This document shows positions 11,782-54,186 of a stretch of DNA of 64,000 bases, piece after piece (position 1 is the first letter of the stretch; each line of letters begins with the position of its first letter). The stretch comes from Glutamicibacter uratoxydans (GTDB lineage: Bacteria > Actinomycetota > Actinomycetes > Actinomycetales > Micrococcaceae), in the NCBI RefSeq assembly GCF_006539925.1, contig NZ_BJNY01000008.1:1-64000 (forward strand), written 5' to 3'. The notes under the pieces were generated by a model. The model saw nothing but the letters and a program-made list of their open reading frames with translations, searched no databases and was not told the origin of the DNA. The position numbers and the translations under genes were made by a program.

Positions 11782-12099
11782 TTAGTGGCTGACGGCTTTC
11801 AAGCCAATAACGCATCCTATGAGGCCAAGAATAAAGACCATTTTCATGATGGTGAAAGGTTCTTGTCCGGTGGCCATCGAATAGACCACCGCTAGGGAAG
11901 CGCCGATCCCCACCCAGACTGCGTATGCGGTTCCGGTGGGGATTTCTTTCATGGCAAAGGCCAAGCCTCCCATGGAAACCAACAGGGCGCTGAAAAAAAT
12001 CACCGTGGGGACCAGTCGCGACAGCCCTTCGCTACGGCCTAGTGCAATGGCCCATACTGCTTCAAACATGCCGGAAATTATCAAGACAAGCCAAGACAT
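11782..12099 (-). CDS. gdx: SMR-family guanidinium exporter (Gdx/SugE)
   Basis: Four-helix small multidrug resistance transporter of the SugE/Gdx branch, 105 residues. The essential membrane glutamate is Glu13 (SGMFEAVWAIALGRSEG). Gdx proteins exchange guanidinium ion for protons. The assignment as guanidinium exporter, not a quaternary-amine pump, is strongly supported by the guanidine-III riboswitch directly upstream. It ends immediately after the stop of crgA in a convergent arrangement. Confidence 0.93.
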   Translation of the reverse strand: MSWLVLIISGMFEAVWAIALGRSEGLSRLVPTVIFFSALLVSMGGLAFAMKEIPTGTAYAVWVGIGASLAVVYSMATGQEPFTIMKMVFILGLIGCVIGLKAVSH

Positions 12100-12100
12100 A

Positions 12101-12119
12101 GCCAGATTCCTCTTCTGGC
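12101..12119 (-). promoter_or_regulatory. Expression-platform hairpin of the guanidine riboswitch
   Basis: A perfect 6-bp inverted repeat (GCCAGA and TCTGGC on the minus strand) encloses AGAGGAA, the ribosome-binding site of gdx, in its 7-base loop. The first three stem bases (GGC) also belong to the aptamer pseudoknot, so ligand binding and this hairpin should exclude each other. Confidence 0.7.
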
Positions 12120-12159
12120 CGTCTTGTCGTCTGTTCCGGGTACGGCTCCCTCGTCCGGG
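12117..12159 (-). promoter_or_regulatory. Guanidine-III (ykkC-III) riboswitch
   Basis: On the minus strand the leader of gdx contains CCCGGACGAGG, then GCCGTACCCGG, then ACGACAAGACGGCC, which matches the compact guanidine-III consensus as I know it. GCCGT pairs with ACGGC and CCGG with CCGG to build the pseudoknot. The 3' strand of the aptamer shares bases with the ribosome-site hairpin at 12101-12119, which suggests translational control by guanidinium. Confidence 0.92.
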
Positions 12160-12184
12160 CGCGGATCTGATATCCGCTCGGCCT

Positions 12185-19826: not shown

Positions 19827-19899
<73 letters not shown>

Positions 19900-19955
19900 G
19901 TATTTAGTTTTGGAAGAATTCCACTTCCGACCGGCTGGCGGTCTTGAACAAGAAA

Positions 19956-19977
19956 GCGGAAAGCTTTCGCTTTCCGC
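19956..19977 (-). terminator. GAAA-loop hairpin between the two tRNA-Ala genes
   Basis: 9-bp perfect stem GCGGAAAGC/GCTTTCCGC with a GAAA tetraloop on the minus strand, downstream of tRNA-Ala copy 2. It parallels the hairpin after copy 1, suggesting that tRNA and hairpin were duplicated together. Confidence 0.6.
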
Positions 19978-19989
19978 AGATCTTATCTG

Positions 19990-20062
<73 letters not shown>

Positions 20063-20069
20063 AAAAGCT

Positions 20070-20189
20070 TTAGGAAACTTTATCGGCTACCTGATGCCAG
20101 GTTTCCTTAGTTTCCGAAGAAGCCTTTACCTTCTTGATCAACACTACCGCAGCAGTGGCAACCGTTGCGAGAACCAGGAACTTTTTCAT
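20070..20189 (-). CDS. DLW-39-family small protein
   Basis: Exactly 39 residues, starting MKKFLVLATVATAAVVLIKK and ending near ETWHQVADKVS. It has one short hydrophobic helix after a Lys-Lys start. The ATG follows a strong GAGGAAGTA ribosome site. The length, the MKK start, the helix and the position between tRNA-Ile and tRNA-Ala beside gyrA fit the actinobacterial DLW-39 family; here the signature reads TW in place of DLW. Function is unknown in the family. Confidence 0.85.
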   Translation of the reverse strand: MKKFLVLATVATAAVVLIKKVKASSETKETWHQVADKVS

Positions 20190-20220
20190 TACTTCCTCTT
20201 TCTCTCCAGCAAGGATTCGG

Positions 20221-20294
20221 TGGGCGTACCAAGACTTGAACTTGGGACCTCTTCGTTATCAGCGAAGCGCTCTAACCGCCTGAGCTATACGCCC
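20221..20294 (-). tRNA. tRNA-Ile (anticodon GAT)
   Basis: 74-nt cloverleaf beginning GGGCGTATAGCTCAGGCGG with anticodon loop CTGATAA. Acceptor GGGCGTA pairs with TACGCCC. First of the Ile/Ala tRNA group downstream of gyrA. Confidence 0.96.
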
Positions 20295-50716: not shown

Positions 50717-52165
50717 ATGCATGCACTTCCCTCAATCGACGCGCTGCGTCAGATCCTGCCTTCGGTCATTTTTGAACTCGCTGACCGTTTCGTTGCGGCA
50801 GGTCACGAGCTTTCCCTGGTGGGCGGGCCCGTTCGAGATCTGTACCTCGGCCGTGTGTCGCCGGATTTGGACTTCACCACGAGCGCAAGGCCCGAAGAAA
50901 CCATCAAGGTGATTACCGGGTGGGCGGAAAGCATCTGGGACGTGGGACGGGACTTTGGAACTATCGCGTTCAGAAAAGGCGATTACACGCTGGAAGTCAC
51001 GACTTACCGGGCTGATGCCTATGACAAGGACTCTCGGAAGCCCGTCGTAGCATTCGGCGACAATCTGCATGACGACCTCTTCCGCCGCGATTTCACCATG
51101 AATGCCATGGCATTGCGCCTACCTCAGCTCGAGCTGGTCGACCCTTTCGACGGCGTCAGCTCCCTGAAGGACAGCCTGATCCGCACGCCAGGCGCCCCGG
51201 ACGTTTCCTTCTCCGATGACCCGCTGCGCATGATGCGCGCCGCCCGCTTTGCCTCCCAGCTGAAAATCGAGGTCAGCTCCGAGGTCCGGCAGGCGATGAG
51301 CGAAATGACCGATCGGATCGAGATCATCTCCGCTGAGCGTGTCCGCGACGAGTTGGTGAAGCTGATCAACGGCGCGGACCCGCGTGCCGGCATCGACCTG
51401 CTGGTGGCTACCGGCCTTGCCGACAAGGTGCTCCCGGAAGTATCCGCGCTGCGCCTGGAAATCGACGAGCACCACCGCCATAAGGATGTCTACCAGCACT
51501 CGTTGACCGTGCTCGAGCAGGCCATGGCGTTGGAGACCGACGCCGAAGGCCCGGTTCCAGGACCAGATTTCATCTTGCGATTTGCGGCGCTGATGCATGA
51601 CATCGGAAAGCCCGCCACCAGGAAGTTCGAGCCAAGCGGCGCAGTATCGTTCCGCCACCACGACATGGTCGGTTCCAAGCTGGTTAAGGCCCGCATGCGC
51701 GCGCTGCGCTTCGACAAGGACACCACCAAGGCTGTGGCCCGGCTGGTTGAACTGCATATGCGGTTCTATGGCTACGGGGATGCCGGATGGACCGATTCGG
51801 CAGTGCGACGCTACGTCACCGATGCCGGAGACCTCTTGCAGCGGCTGCACCGGCTCACGCGATCGGACGTGACAACCCGCAACCGCAAAAAGGCAGATAG
51901 GTTGTCGTTCGCCTACGACGACCTCGAGGCGCGCATTGAAGAAATCAGCGCCCAGGAAGAACTGGACGCGGTGCGCCCGGACCTGAACGGCGAACAGATC
52001 ATGCAGATTCTTGGCATCAAACCTGGACCGGTTGTCGGCAGGGCCTATAAGTTCATGCTCAACCTGCGCCTGGATGAGGGAGTCCTCGGCGAAGAGGTAG
52101 CTGTCGAACGCCTTCGTTCCTGGTGGGCTGAGCAACCGGAATCTGAGGACTCAGCGGCCGAATAG
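50717..52165 (+). CDS. cca: CCA tRNA nucleotidyltransferase
   Basis: Adds CCA to tRNA 3' ends; none of the four tRNA genes here encodes CCA. 482 residues. The head has LVGGPVRDLYLGRVSPDLDFTTSARP and RRDFTMNAMAL; the C-terminal half carries an HD domain (HHRHKDVYQHSLTVLEQA, ALMHDIGKPATRKFE). Divergent from the NUDIX gene as in related genomes (pcnA). Confidence 0.96.
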   Translation: MHALPSIDALRQILPSVIFELADRFVAAGHELSLVGGPVRDLYLGRVSPDLDFTTSARPEETIKVITGWAESIWDVGRDFGTIAFRKGDYTLEVTTYRADAYDKDSRKPVVAFGDNLHDDLFRRDFTMNAMALRLPQLELVDPFDGVSSLKDSLIRTPGAPDVSFSDDPLRMMRAARFASQLKIEVSSEVRQAMSEMTDRIEIISAERVRDELVKLINGADPRAGIDLLVATGLADKVLPEVSALRLEIDEHHRHKDVYQHSLTVLEQAMALETDAEGPVPGPDFILRFAALMHDIGKPATRKFEPSGAVSFRHHDMVGSKLVKARMRALRFDKDTTKAVARLVELHMRFYGYGDAGWTDSAVRRYVTDAGDLLQRLHRLTRSDVTTRNRKKADRLSFAYDDLEARIEEISAQEELDAVRPDLNGEQIMQILGIKPGPVVGRAYKFMLNLRLDEGVLGEEVAVERLRSWWAEQPESEDSAAE

Positions 52166-52192
52166 GGCTTTTTGACCTGAGTCGCAGCCACG

Positions 52193-52220
52193 GGCCCGAT
52201 TTTCTGCGGAAAATCGGGCC
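52193..52220 (+). terminator. Terminator after cca
   Basis: 12-bp perfect stem GGCCCGATTTTC/GAAAATCGGGCC with loop TGCG, then TTT. Confidence 0.85.
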
Positions 52221-52312
52221 TTTGCTGTTGACGGTGAAAATTTTCTTAAACAATTTGTGCAAATAGCTGGCATGCGGACAAGAGTCCATGTATGCTAATA
52301 ACTGTGATTGGG

Positions 52313-52379
52313 AAGTCTCAATGAGACTTGCGAATCGAAAAGTTATTCAAATGGAGTCTCGTGGGAACACGATCGACTC
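52313..52379 (+). promoter_or_regulatory. Structured leader of the tiny-gene group
   Basis: An exact palindrome AAGTCTCA-A-TGAGACTT (52313-52329), possible operator or hairpin, is followed by a nested stem-loop (GAGT/ACTC enclosing TCGTG-GGAA-CACGA, 52354-52379). A TATGCT -10-like sequence with an upstream TG lies near 52291-52298. The ribosome site of the first small gene follows at about 52391-52397. Confidence 0.55.
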
Positions 52380-52406
52380 GGATCAGATTTAGGAGGTGGG
52401 AAAACG

Positions 52407-52520
52407 ATGTTTATGAATCGAACTTATTGGACCGATCGCGCTGTGCGATCCGGCAATGACTTTATTGCGCTCGGCGGCAATCATTTCGTCTCCCCATCCT
52501 CCGGAACCGTGGATTCCTAA
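52407..52520 (+). CDS. Small protein 1, 37 residues
   Basis: ATG at 52407 preceded at a 9-base distance by a near-perfect AGGAGGTG. The product starts MFMNRTYWTDRAVRSGNDFI and ends in SSGTVDS; it has no hydrophobic helix. It could be a small functional protein or a leader peptide for the structured RNA that follows (52544-52595). I recognise no family. Confidence 0.6.
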   Translation: MFMNRTYWTDRAVRSGNDFIALGGNHFVSPSSGTVDS

Positions 52521-52543
52521 ACTTTTTGTAGGTTATTCCCAAT

Positions 52544-52595
52544 AAAGTTCCTGAGGGTGCAAGTCAGTATTCGACTCCATCCTAGGAACTTTTTT
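52544..52595 (+). promoter_or_regulatory. Terminator-like hairpin that covers a ribosome site
   Basis: AAAGTTCCT (52544-52552) pairs with AGGAACTTT (52584-52592), and further T residues follow, giving a terminator shape with a 31-base partly paired loop. The 3' arm contains AGGAA, the only ribosome site for the next small gene, whose ATG begins at 52597. The same structure could thus stop transcription or hide the ribosome site. Confidence 0.6.
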
Positions 52596-52596
52596 C

Positions 52597-52755
52597 ATGT
52601 CTGCTCCACTTTTCATCACGACTGCTCAACGGGCTGTACGGACCTCGGAACTAATCTTCGCTGGACCAGAGAGCCTCAAAGCACGCGCAATCTCTACAAC
52701 GCGCCAAGATCTTCCCGTAGCTCAACTGCTGACTGAAGGGAGGGAAAACAAATGA
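52597..52755 (+). CDS. Small protein 2, 52 residues
   Basis: Starts MSAPLFITTAQRAVRTSELI one base after a T-run. AGGAA 8 bases upstream is the ribosome site and lies in a hairpin arm. The protein is soluble and mildly basic, ending TEGRENK. Its stop overlaps the start of the next gene (ATGA), which supports translation of both. No known family. Confidence 0.6.
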   Translation: MSAPLFITTAQRAVRTSELIFAGPESLKARAISTTRQDLPVAQLLTEGRENK

Positions 52756-52874
52756 CCAAACGTCAGGACAAGCGCAAAAGCCAGTACATGGACAGCGCTG
52801 AGTTCAGCCGCAACCTGCGCCAGCGTGAACTGAAGAACCACGTTCCGCCAGAAATGTACTTCCGCATTCGATAA
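52752..52874 (+). CDS. Small protein 3, 40 residues, highly charged
   Basis: Starts MTKRQDKRKSQYMDSAEFSR and ends PPEMYFRIR; about a third of the residues are charged, mostly Lys and Arg, which would fit binding to RNA, ribosome or another protein. A strong GGGAGGG site lies within the end of the preceding gene, and the ATGA overlap suggests coupling. No known family. Confidence 0.65.
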   Translation: MTKRQDKRKSQYMDSAEFSRNLRQRELKNHVPPEMYFRIR

Positions 52875-52951
52875 GGTGCGATAACGCCATTACCGTTATC
52901 CATCCGACCGAACCAAGGAGTACCGATGAACTCGCCAATTAATACTCAGAG

Positions 52952-52977
52952 GCCCGCCGGCCTACAAGCCGGCGGGC
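52952..52977 (+). terminator. Terminator after the tiny-gene group
   Basis: 10-bp GC-rich perfect stem GCCCGCCGGC/GCCGGCGGGC, loop CTACAA, then TTT. Confidence 0.85.
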
Positions 52978-53005
52978 TTTCCGCATCCAGGAACAAACTC
53001 CCCGA

Positions 53006-53036
53006 GAACTCAAAATCGAAACAAGATTTTGAGTTC
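53006..53036. repeat. Inverted repeat, second hairpin
   Basis: 12-bp perfect stem GAACTCAAAATC/GATTTTGAGTTC with a 7-base loop between two stronger terminators. May be a backup terminator for either direction. Confidence 0.6.
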
Positions 53037-53053
53037 GGCAATTTGATGCAAAA

Positions 53054-53084
53054 CAGCCGGTGTAGAGGATCTCTACACCGGCTG
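53054..53084 (-). terminator. Terminator of ino1
   Basis: 14-bp perfect stem CAGCCGGTGTAGAG and complement, loop GAT, followed by CTGTTTTGC region on the minus strand; 16 bases after the ino1 stop. Confidence 0.85.
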
Positions 53085-53100
53085 ATCTGTTGTTCAGGCC

Positions 53101-54186
53101 TTAGCGCTCAACGTCGCCGCGGATGAAGGCTTCAACCTTCTCGCGGGCGGTCTCATCGTCGTACTGCTCTGGTGGCGACTTCATGAAGTAGCTCGAGGCC
53201 GACAGGATCGGGCCGCCGATGCCGCGGTCCAGCGCGATCTTGGCTGCACGCACAGCGTCAATGATGACACCTGCCGAGTTTGGCGAATCCCAAACCTCCA
53301 GCTTGTACTCCAGATTGACCGGGGCGTCACCGAAATTGCGGCCCTCGAGGCGTACGAAGGCCCACTTGCGGTCATCGAGCCATGACACGTAGTCCGATGG
53401 GCCGATGTGGACGTCATTCTCGGTCAGGTCGGCAGAGGTGTTCGAAGTGACAGCCTGAGTCTTGGAGATTTTCTTGGATTCCAGGCGCTCGCGCTCGAGC
53501 ATGTTCATGAAGTCCATGTTGCCGCCGACGTTCAGCTGGTAGGTGCGGTCCAGAACCACACCGCGGTCTTCAAACAGCTTTGCCATGACGCGGTGGGTGA
53601 TGGTGGCGCCAATCTGGCTCTTGATGTCGTCGCCAACGATTGGTACACCGGCATCGGTGAACTTCTGGGCCCACTCCGGGGTGCCGGCAATGAACACGGG
53701 CAGAGCGTTGACAAAAGCTACGCCGGCATCGATTGCACACTGTGCATAGAACTTGGCTGCCTGCTCTGAACCAACCGGCAGGTAGCAAACCATAACGTCG
53801 ACCTTGTTGTCCTTCAGAGCCTGGACAACATCGACTGGCTCGGCTGCAGACTCTTCAATGGTCTGGCGGTAGTACTTGCCCAAGCCGTCGAGGGTGTGGC
53901 CGCGCTGGACCGTCACACCGGTAGTTGGAACATCGGTGATCTTAATGGTGTTGTTCTCGCTGGCGAGAATTGCATCAGATAGATCCAAACCCACCTTCTT
54001 CGAATCAACGTCGAAGGCTGCTACGAACTGCACATCGTTGACGTGGTAGTCGCCGAACTTTACGTGCATCAGGCCTGGAATGGTGGACCCTGCATCGGCA
54101 TTTCGGTAGTACTCGACACCTTGGATAAGTGAAGTGGCGCAGTTGCCCACGCCAACGATGGCAACGCGAATCGGGTTCGCCGACAC
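53101..54186 (-). CDS. ino1: Inositol-3-phosphate synthase
   Basis: NAD-dependent enzyme converting glucose 6-phosphate to myo-inositol 3-phosphate, needed for phosphatidylinositol and mycothiol. 361 residues of the actinobacterial type: NAD-binding [20 protein letters not shown], conserved [26 protein letters not shown] and [28 protein letters not shown]. The start is GTG 54186 with AAGGAG 5 bases before it. Confidence 0.96.

Follow-up and report, generated by a model that had tools for sequence, protein, structure and literature searches.

A leader open reading frame and a putative four-strand RNA switch upstream of two conserved microprotein genes in Glutamicibacter and related Micrococcaceae

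Positions 52280–52980 of a 64,000-nucleotide stretch of Glutamicibacter uratoxydans DNA (contig NZ_BJNY01000008.1, positions 1 to 64,000; hereafter the window) contain three small open reading frames, ORF2, ORF3 and ORF4, interspersed with potential RNA hairpins. A preliminary description, made from the sequence letters, took them for a group of three small genes forming a real transcription unit of tiny proteins with no known family. The question raised by this locus is whether all three frames are protein genes, and what the structured RNA between them could do. The comparisons reported here suggest that the locus is probably transcribed as a unit of its own, with ORF2 as a translated leader that, together with a four-strand RNA switch, controls the microproteins ORF3 and ORF4. 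All parts listed in the preliminary description were located in the window; they are single-copy and are kept beyond chance in relatives. Among the papers listed by searches of an open-licence library, none was apparently on this locus. The frames and the strands of the proposed switch are listed below, with the evidence for each in brackets.

52391–52403, plus strand: Shine-Dalgarno (SD) sequence of ORF2, which is strand 1 (alignment, pairing scan)
52407–52520, plus strand: ORF2, a 37-codon leader frame (translation, ratio of nonsynonymous to synonymous substitution rates, dN/dS)
52490–52517, plus strand: strand 2, the 3' end of ORF2, putative anti-SD and 5' arm of the antiterminator (pairing, covariation, divergence)
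52544–52559, plus strand: strand 3, the core of the intercistronic strand and candidate partner of strand 2 or strand 4 (pairing, covariation)
52563–52575, plus strand: apical hairpin GTC-AGTATTC-GAC of the 3:4 hairpin (alignment)
52580–52595, plus strand: strand 4, which carries the ribosome site of ORF3 (AGGA, 52584–52587) and a U-run (sequence, alignment)
52597–52755, plus strand: ORF3, a 52-residue microprotein (translation, profile, dN/dS)
52752–52874, plus strand: ORF4, a 40-residue basic microprotein that overlaps ORF3 by ATGA (translation, dN/dS)

The comparative analysis was based on 40 distinct elements, parsed after removal of duplicates, truncated elements and elements with runs of N (including L054, L055 and L066). 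The set comprises 18 elements from Glutamicibacter, 14 from genus g44, three from the clade of L041, L048 and L050, three from genus g11 and two from genus g42. The compared sequences are related, and the shuffle counts given below are therefore not probabilities. The unit is conserved in 18 of 18 genomes of the same genus and, in diverged form, in four more genera of Micrococcaceae.

The 52- and 40-codon frames joined by an ATGA overlap are present as described, and their substitution patterns support the identification of ORF3 and ORF4 as conserved microproteins under codon selection. In Glutamicibacter (18 elements) dN/dS is 0.24 for ORF3 and 0.17 for ORF4; the corresponding values in g44 (14 elements) are 0.43 and 0.27. 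Searches of both products against Pfam, NCBIfam, PHROGs, PADLOC and PDB sequences gave no convincing match, with weak listings of one PHROG (E-value 0.34) and one Pfam family (E-value 0.12). AlphaFold models are poor, with a mean predicted local distance difference test score (pLDDT) of 58.9 for ORF3 and 66.1 for ORF4. For these two frames, codon selection and the lack of convincing matches support the earlier notion of a unit of tiny proteins without a known family.

ORF2 is of another kind. The ribosome site noted ahead of this frame, AGGAGGTGG, is present, and a GGAGGTGG ribosome site with an open frame of 33–51 codons precedes ORF3–ORF4 in all 40 parsed elements (the parser required an ORF2 length of 28–62 codons); translation of this leader is predicted. 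In the 18 Glutamicibacter elements, dN/dS of ORF2 is 0.96, and divergence at codon positions 1, 2 and 3 (0.415, 0.401 and 0.353) shows the disregard of codon position that the preliminary description had named as telling against its frames; ORF2 is thus not borne out as a protein gene in this genus. No ORF2 peptide is conserved across Glutamicibacter. In the 14 g44 elements dN/dS is 0.44, and there may be some constraint on the peptide there. Taken together, ORF2 behaves in the alignments as a leader ORF, with site and frame kept while the peptide drifts.

What is kept in ORF2 is its 3' end. Within Glutamicibacter, strand 2 diverges by 0.22 per site, compared with 0.58 in the preceding 29 nucleotides. 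The CCTCCGG motif of this region is kept as RNA, because in g42 it sits in a different frame from ORF2. The peptide PASG at the end of ORF2 was considered as an arrest peptide and rejected, as g42 keeps the nucleotides in a different frame. Across all 40 elements, the best 14-nucleotide complement of the ORF2 SD within the frame starts 28–32 nucleotides ahead of the ORF2 3' end, and it beats shuffles at the 0.05 level in 31 of them (60 shuffles each). Pairing of the last 36 nucleotides of ORF2 with the intercistronic RNA reaches the same level in 32 of 40 elements (200 shuffles each): 14 of 18 in Glutamicibacter, 14 of 14 in g44, two of three in the L041/L048/L050 clade, two of three in g11 and none of two in g42.

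The main weight of the proposed switch is carried by the helix between strands 2 and 3. In the Glutamicibacter alignment (A7, 18 elements), 88.8% of 356 cells of the 2:3 helix are paired, and both sides have changed in seven of 20 pairs (18 cells). The covariation score is 0.194 against 0.102 in shuffled alignments, and none of 500 shuffles reached this score, the paired percentage, the number of two-sided cells or the number of pair types; the count of covarying pairs was reached by seven of 500. Versions of the helix slid along the alignment have at most six two-sided cells and score at most 0.064. The putative antiterminator helix 2:3 is thus supported by covariation in Glutamicibacter, and more weakly across genera.

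One alternative is a plain operon encoding three or four small proteins, in which the hairpins are no more than terminators or stabilisers and there is no switch. It would agree with the codon selection on ORF3 and ORF4, with the good ribosome sites and with the dN/dS of ORF2 in g44. It leaves unexplained why, in Glutamicibacter, an ORF2 with a dN/dS of 0.96 nevertheless keeps a 3' end that covaries with the intercistronic strand, and we regard it as unlikely. The structured RNA reported between the frames is indeed present, and in our reading of the alignments it is better explained as a switch controlling ORF3–ORF4.

Two further pairings would complete this switch. In Glutamicibacter the 3:4 hairpin is nearly invariant, with 96.8% of 252 cells paired. 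It corresponds to the terminator-shaped hairpin described before ORF3 (52544–52595): the structure is present and ends in TTTTTT, although a pattern scan calls no terminator here, as the loop exceeds the size that the scan allows. Two of 12 g44 rows (L034 and L058) carry a G-to-A change in strand 3 that is matched by C-to-T changes in strands 2 and 4 alike. For the 1:2 helix, 91.9% of 198 cells are paired. The alignments suggest moderate support for the 1:2 helix as a whole; covariation as such lends weak or no support to 1:2 and 3:4. Sequence mimicry between strands 2 and 4 was considered and dropped: in 19 chosen elements, the longest shared word never beat shuffles below 28 of 500.

Three competing pairings on four strands would be, by analogy, the anatomy of a ribosome-controlled attenuator. 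Strand 1 would be the leader's own SD; strand 2, the last ~30 nucleotides of ORF2; strand 3, the intercistronic segment; and strand 4, the arm with the ORF3 ribosome site, joined in Glutamicibacter by the U-run. Helix 1:2 could act as the protector, helix 2:3, with the ORF2 stop codon in its loop, as the antiterminator, and helix 3:4 as the terminator or sequestor. A ribosome at the end of ORF2 would cover strand 2 and let 3:4 form, so that free translation would switch ORF3–ORF4 off. A ribosome stalled on the first ORF2 codons, many of them for Asn, Ile or Met, would cover strand 1 and leave strand 2 free; 2:3 could then form and ORF3–ORF4 would be made. When there is no translation, 1:2 may favour the off state, which is the least certain step. 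In Glutamicibacter the 3:4 hairpin with its U-run could stop transcription; concealment of the ORF3 start would remain where the U-run is absent (the L041/L048/L050 clade, g11 and g42). Both the switching between these structures and the sign of the response are what we infer from the pairings.

Folding was explored by an equilibrium calculation on 25 chosen elements, for transcripts cut just after strand 3 and for full transcripts. With the first codons blocked, the cut transcript has at least 9.6 expected 2:3 pairs in 24 of 25 elements. With the end of ORF2 blocked, 2:3 is gone in 25 of 25, which is a consequence of the block itself. The full transcript without a ribosome has at least 5.9 expected 3:4 pairs in 22 of 25.

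Several observations weigh against the attenuator model. In eight of 40 elements, among them both from g42, strand 2 and the intercistronic RNA pair no better than shuffles do. The 1:2 helix has a single covarying pair, and sliding it by −2 gives a higher covariation score (0.144 against 0.120). Covariation of 3:4 in Glutamicibacter does not exceed that of shuffles (212 of 500 reached it), for the hairpin is nearly invariant, and a slide by +1 scores 0.085 against 0.042 for the unslid version. Glutamicibacter has the U-run and g44 a short one, but the L041/L048/L050 clade, g11 and g42 have none. In the calculations, 1:2 exceeds 2:3 in only eight of 25 cut transcripts without a ribosome, and blocking the first codons of full transcripts leaves 3:4 ahead of 2:3 in 20 of 25. 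As 3:4 dominates at equilibrium, any switch would have to be kinetic, acting during RNA synthesis. Finally, the Asn/Ile/Met block may consist of regulatory codons, or may merely reflect an open, G-poor start region.

The last point bears on another explanation, in which the leader senses one amino acid family through Asn, Ile, Met or Thr codons at the start of ORF2, in the manner of biosynthetic attenuators, and the microproteins serve that metabolism. Asn, Ile and Met make up 41% of ORF2 codons 1–10, compared with 10% in 36 genes of the window that were chosen as long frames, and Asn is found among the first ten codons in 23 of 23 chosen leaders, with no Lys. This composition could, however, stem from a G-poor unstructured start; there is no run of a single codon, and no linkage to a biosynthetic operon was seen. 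We consider amino acid sensing improbable, less so only than the binding element discussed below. For the attenuator model, we infer that the signal could be slow elongation, caused by translation inhibitors or by shortage of charged tRNA, and the ORF3 and ORF4 products could have a role in translation stress.

The region upstream of ORF2 contains three further features.

52267–52296, plus strand: promoter-like element CTGGCA-18-TATGCT (alignment; −10 part conserved in Glutamicibacter)
52305–52337, plus strand: SL1 (SL, stem-loop), hairpin with which the transcript presumably begins, holding the palindrome and a GTG frame (alignment)
52354–52379, plus strand: SL2, covarying stem-loop, the nested stem-loop of the preliminary description (alignment)

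The letters of the promoter-like element are present as described, although a consensus scan calls no sigma-70-type promoter on the plus strand. The 17-base palindrome, AAGTCTCAATGAGACTT, was found at 52313–52329. A six-codon leaderless GTG frame inside SL1 (52304–52324) looks perfect in Glutamicibacter; it was rejected as a gene, since g11 has no stop codon there and g42 no start codon, and it is probably not one. The SL1 pattern gives a single match in each of 25 GTDB stretches (Arthrobacter, Glutamicibacter, Paeniglutamicibacter and Micrococcaceae bacterium) and, with at most two mismatches, matches three of 396 genomes of the order; none was found in IMG/VR.

The Glutamicibacter alignment shows high conservation of SL1, SL2 and the apical hairpin, and a ribosome-based model leaves these three unexplained. 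They could instead form a riboswitch-like RNA that binds a metabolite or a protein, or the SL1 palindrome could be a DNA operator, with ORF2 incidental in either case. SL1 and the apical loop are nevertheless altered in other genera, and all 40 elements retain ORF2 together with its ribosome site. Rfam 15 shows no family at gathering score over 52160–53110, and a lax limit gives sub-threshold listings alone. We regard this as the least probable of the explanations considered.

Three features lie downstream of ORF4.

52880–52900, plus strand: SL4, hairpin after ORF4 (alignment)
52926–53126, plus strand: ORF5, starting after ORF4 and running through the GC hairpin, with a 3' part that is not conserved (translation, alignment)
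52952–52977, plus strand: SL5, GC hairpin without a U-run (alignment; single copy in the genome)

SL5 had been described as a strong terminator closing the unit; it lacks a U-run, and the pattern scan makes no call there. Its pattern, GCCCGCCGGC..GCCGGCGGGC, was found in the genome of the window at this place only. The ORF5 start codon is present in the other relatives parsed to that point, and none was found in g11. Transcripts ending at SL5 would carry ORF5 without a stop codon. The apical loop of SL3 (52563–52575) reads AGTAATC in many relatives; by eye, part of it is complementary to part of CCATTAC, the loop of SL4. A kissing contact between SL3 and SL4 is doubtful, because in three relatives, the window among them, the first loop has changed and the second has not.

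The distribution of the unit was assessed with several searches. At the DNA level it aligns in 18 of 58 genomes: every one of the 18 from the same genus, and not one of the remaining 40. An ORF3 profile (E-value at most 0.01) matches 51 of 295 genomes of the family, at 36 strong and 17 weak places. Seven of the weak places have the same layout (G027, G059, G078, G086, G101, G109 and G128, of genera g11 and g42); the other ten (L113–L120, L123 and L124) were dropped, as the surrounding translations have no ORF3/ORF4 pair. A wider profile matches 27 of 149 family genomes in five of 32 genera, with the place in G144 (E-value 5.7e-7) counted from its score alone. In the order, the wider profile (E-value at most 0.001) matches four of 248 genomes, one of which (G313) is doubtful, being a weak match within a 280-residue frame. 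An ORF4 search in the class (E-value at most 0.05) matches seven of 296 genomes and is strong in its own genome only. An RNA model of the switch gives one match per genome in 19 of 78 genomes, 18 from the same genus and one from g44, each at the locus described here; under the strict filters used it missed three carriers of the unit, G027, G034 and G059, and there may be diverged copies. A plasmid search for the unit gave no match.

In the window, the unit is flanked upstream by a gene with PolyA_pol and HD domains (50717–52165), taken as a CCA tRNA nucleotidyltransferase, and on the other side by a convergent myo-inositol-1-phosphate synthase gene (53101–54186, minus strand). A cca-like gene is found upstream in Glutamicibacter, in g44 locus L034 and in three of three g11 loci read. 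At L041, L048, L106 and L107 we see by eye what are presumably a histidine phosphatase gene upstream or a formate-tetrahydrofolate ligase gene downstream. Neighbours vary among loci, and therefore the unit is independent of any single one. Between the unit and the inositol-phosphate synthase gene lies a 14-pair hairpin (53054–53084) with a terminator-like call on both strands. Elsewhere in the window, a Guanidine-III riboswitch at gathering score (12114–12182, minus strand) precedes a 105-codon frame on that strand (11782–12099), which may encode a small multidrug-resistance or guanidinium exporter (Gdx/SugE). Four tRNA genes at gathering score occupy 5–88 and 19827–20294 on the minus strand; three are clustered, and two have equal scores.

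Leader-ORF attenuators usually control biosynthesis or resistance genes. Four-strand attenuators of the trp type have been predicted in Actinobacteria for trp, trpS and leuS (PMC1262725). As in that account, the locus has a leader ORF followed by alternative pairings that would set a terminator or antiterminator before a structural gene; unlike there, strand 1 would be the leader's own SD, no single regulatory codon run is present, and the targets are two orphan microproteins rather than biosynthetic or tRNA-ligase genes. In the duf1127-1 leader of Sinorhizobium meliloti (PMC12218461), the ribosome site of an upstream ORF (uORF) can likewise pair with C-rich codons of that uORF; translation status is read there, as proposed here, and the leader controls a small gene whose function is unclear. 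ORF3 and ORF4 differ from that target in having no DUF1127 match in Pfam scans. In toiL-topAI of Escherichia coli (PMC12121999), ribosome stalling on a uORF frees a hidden downstream ribosome site, as we propose here, but topAI-yjhQ is a toxin-antitoxin pair under Rho-dependent termination, and no such family was found here. The vmlR leader of Bacillus subtilis (PMC9226507) combines transcription and translation attenuation, as our locus may do, with an ABC-F resistance ATPase as target, unlike our locus.

We speculate, tentatively, that the attenuator at this locus could be a peptide-independent gauge of ribosome traffic. The leader SD would serve as the sensing strand and read a ribosome on the first codons whatever the cause of its delay, releasing a new pair of translation-stress microproteins, so far found in five genera of Micrococcaceae; control by the same switch could be transcriptional in Glutamicibacter and purely translational in its relatives. 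The whole unit seems devoted to two orphan microproteins. This suggests that they function in responding to slowed translation, and makes them easy to test. An SD-as-sensor design, with and without a U-run across genera, would offer a natural series for the evolution of attenuators in this family.
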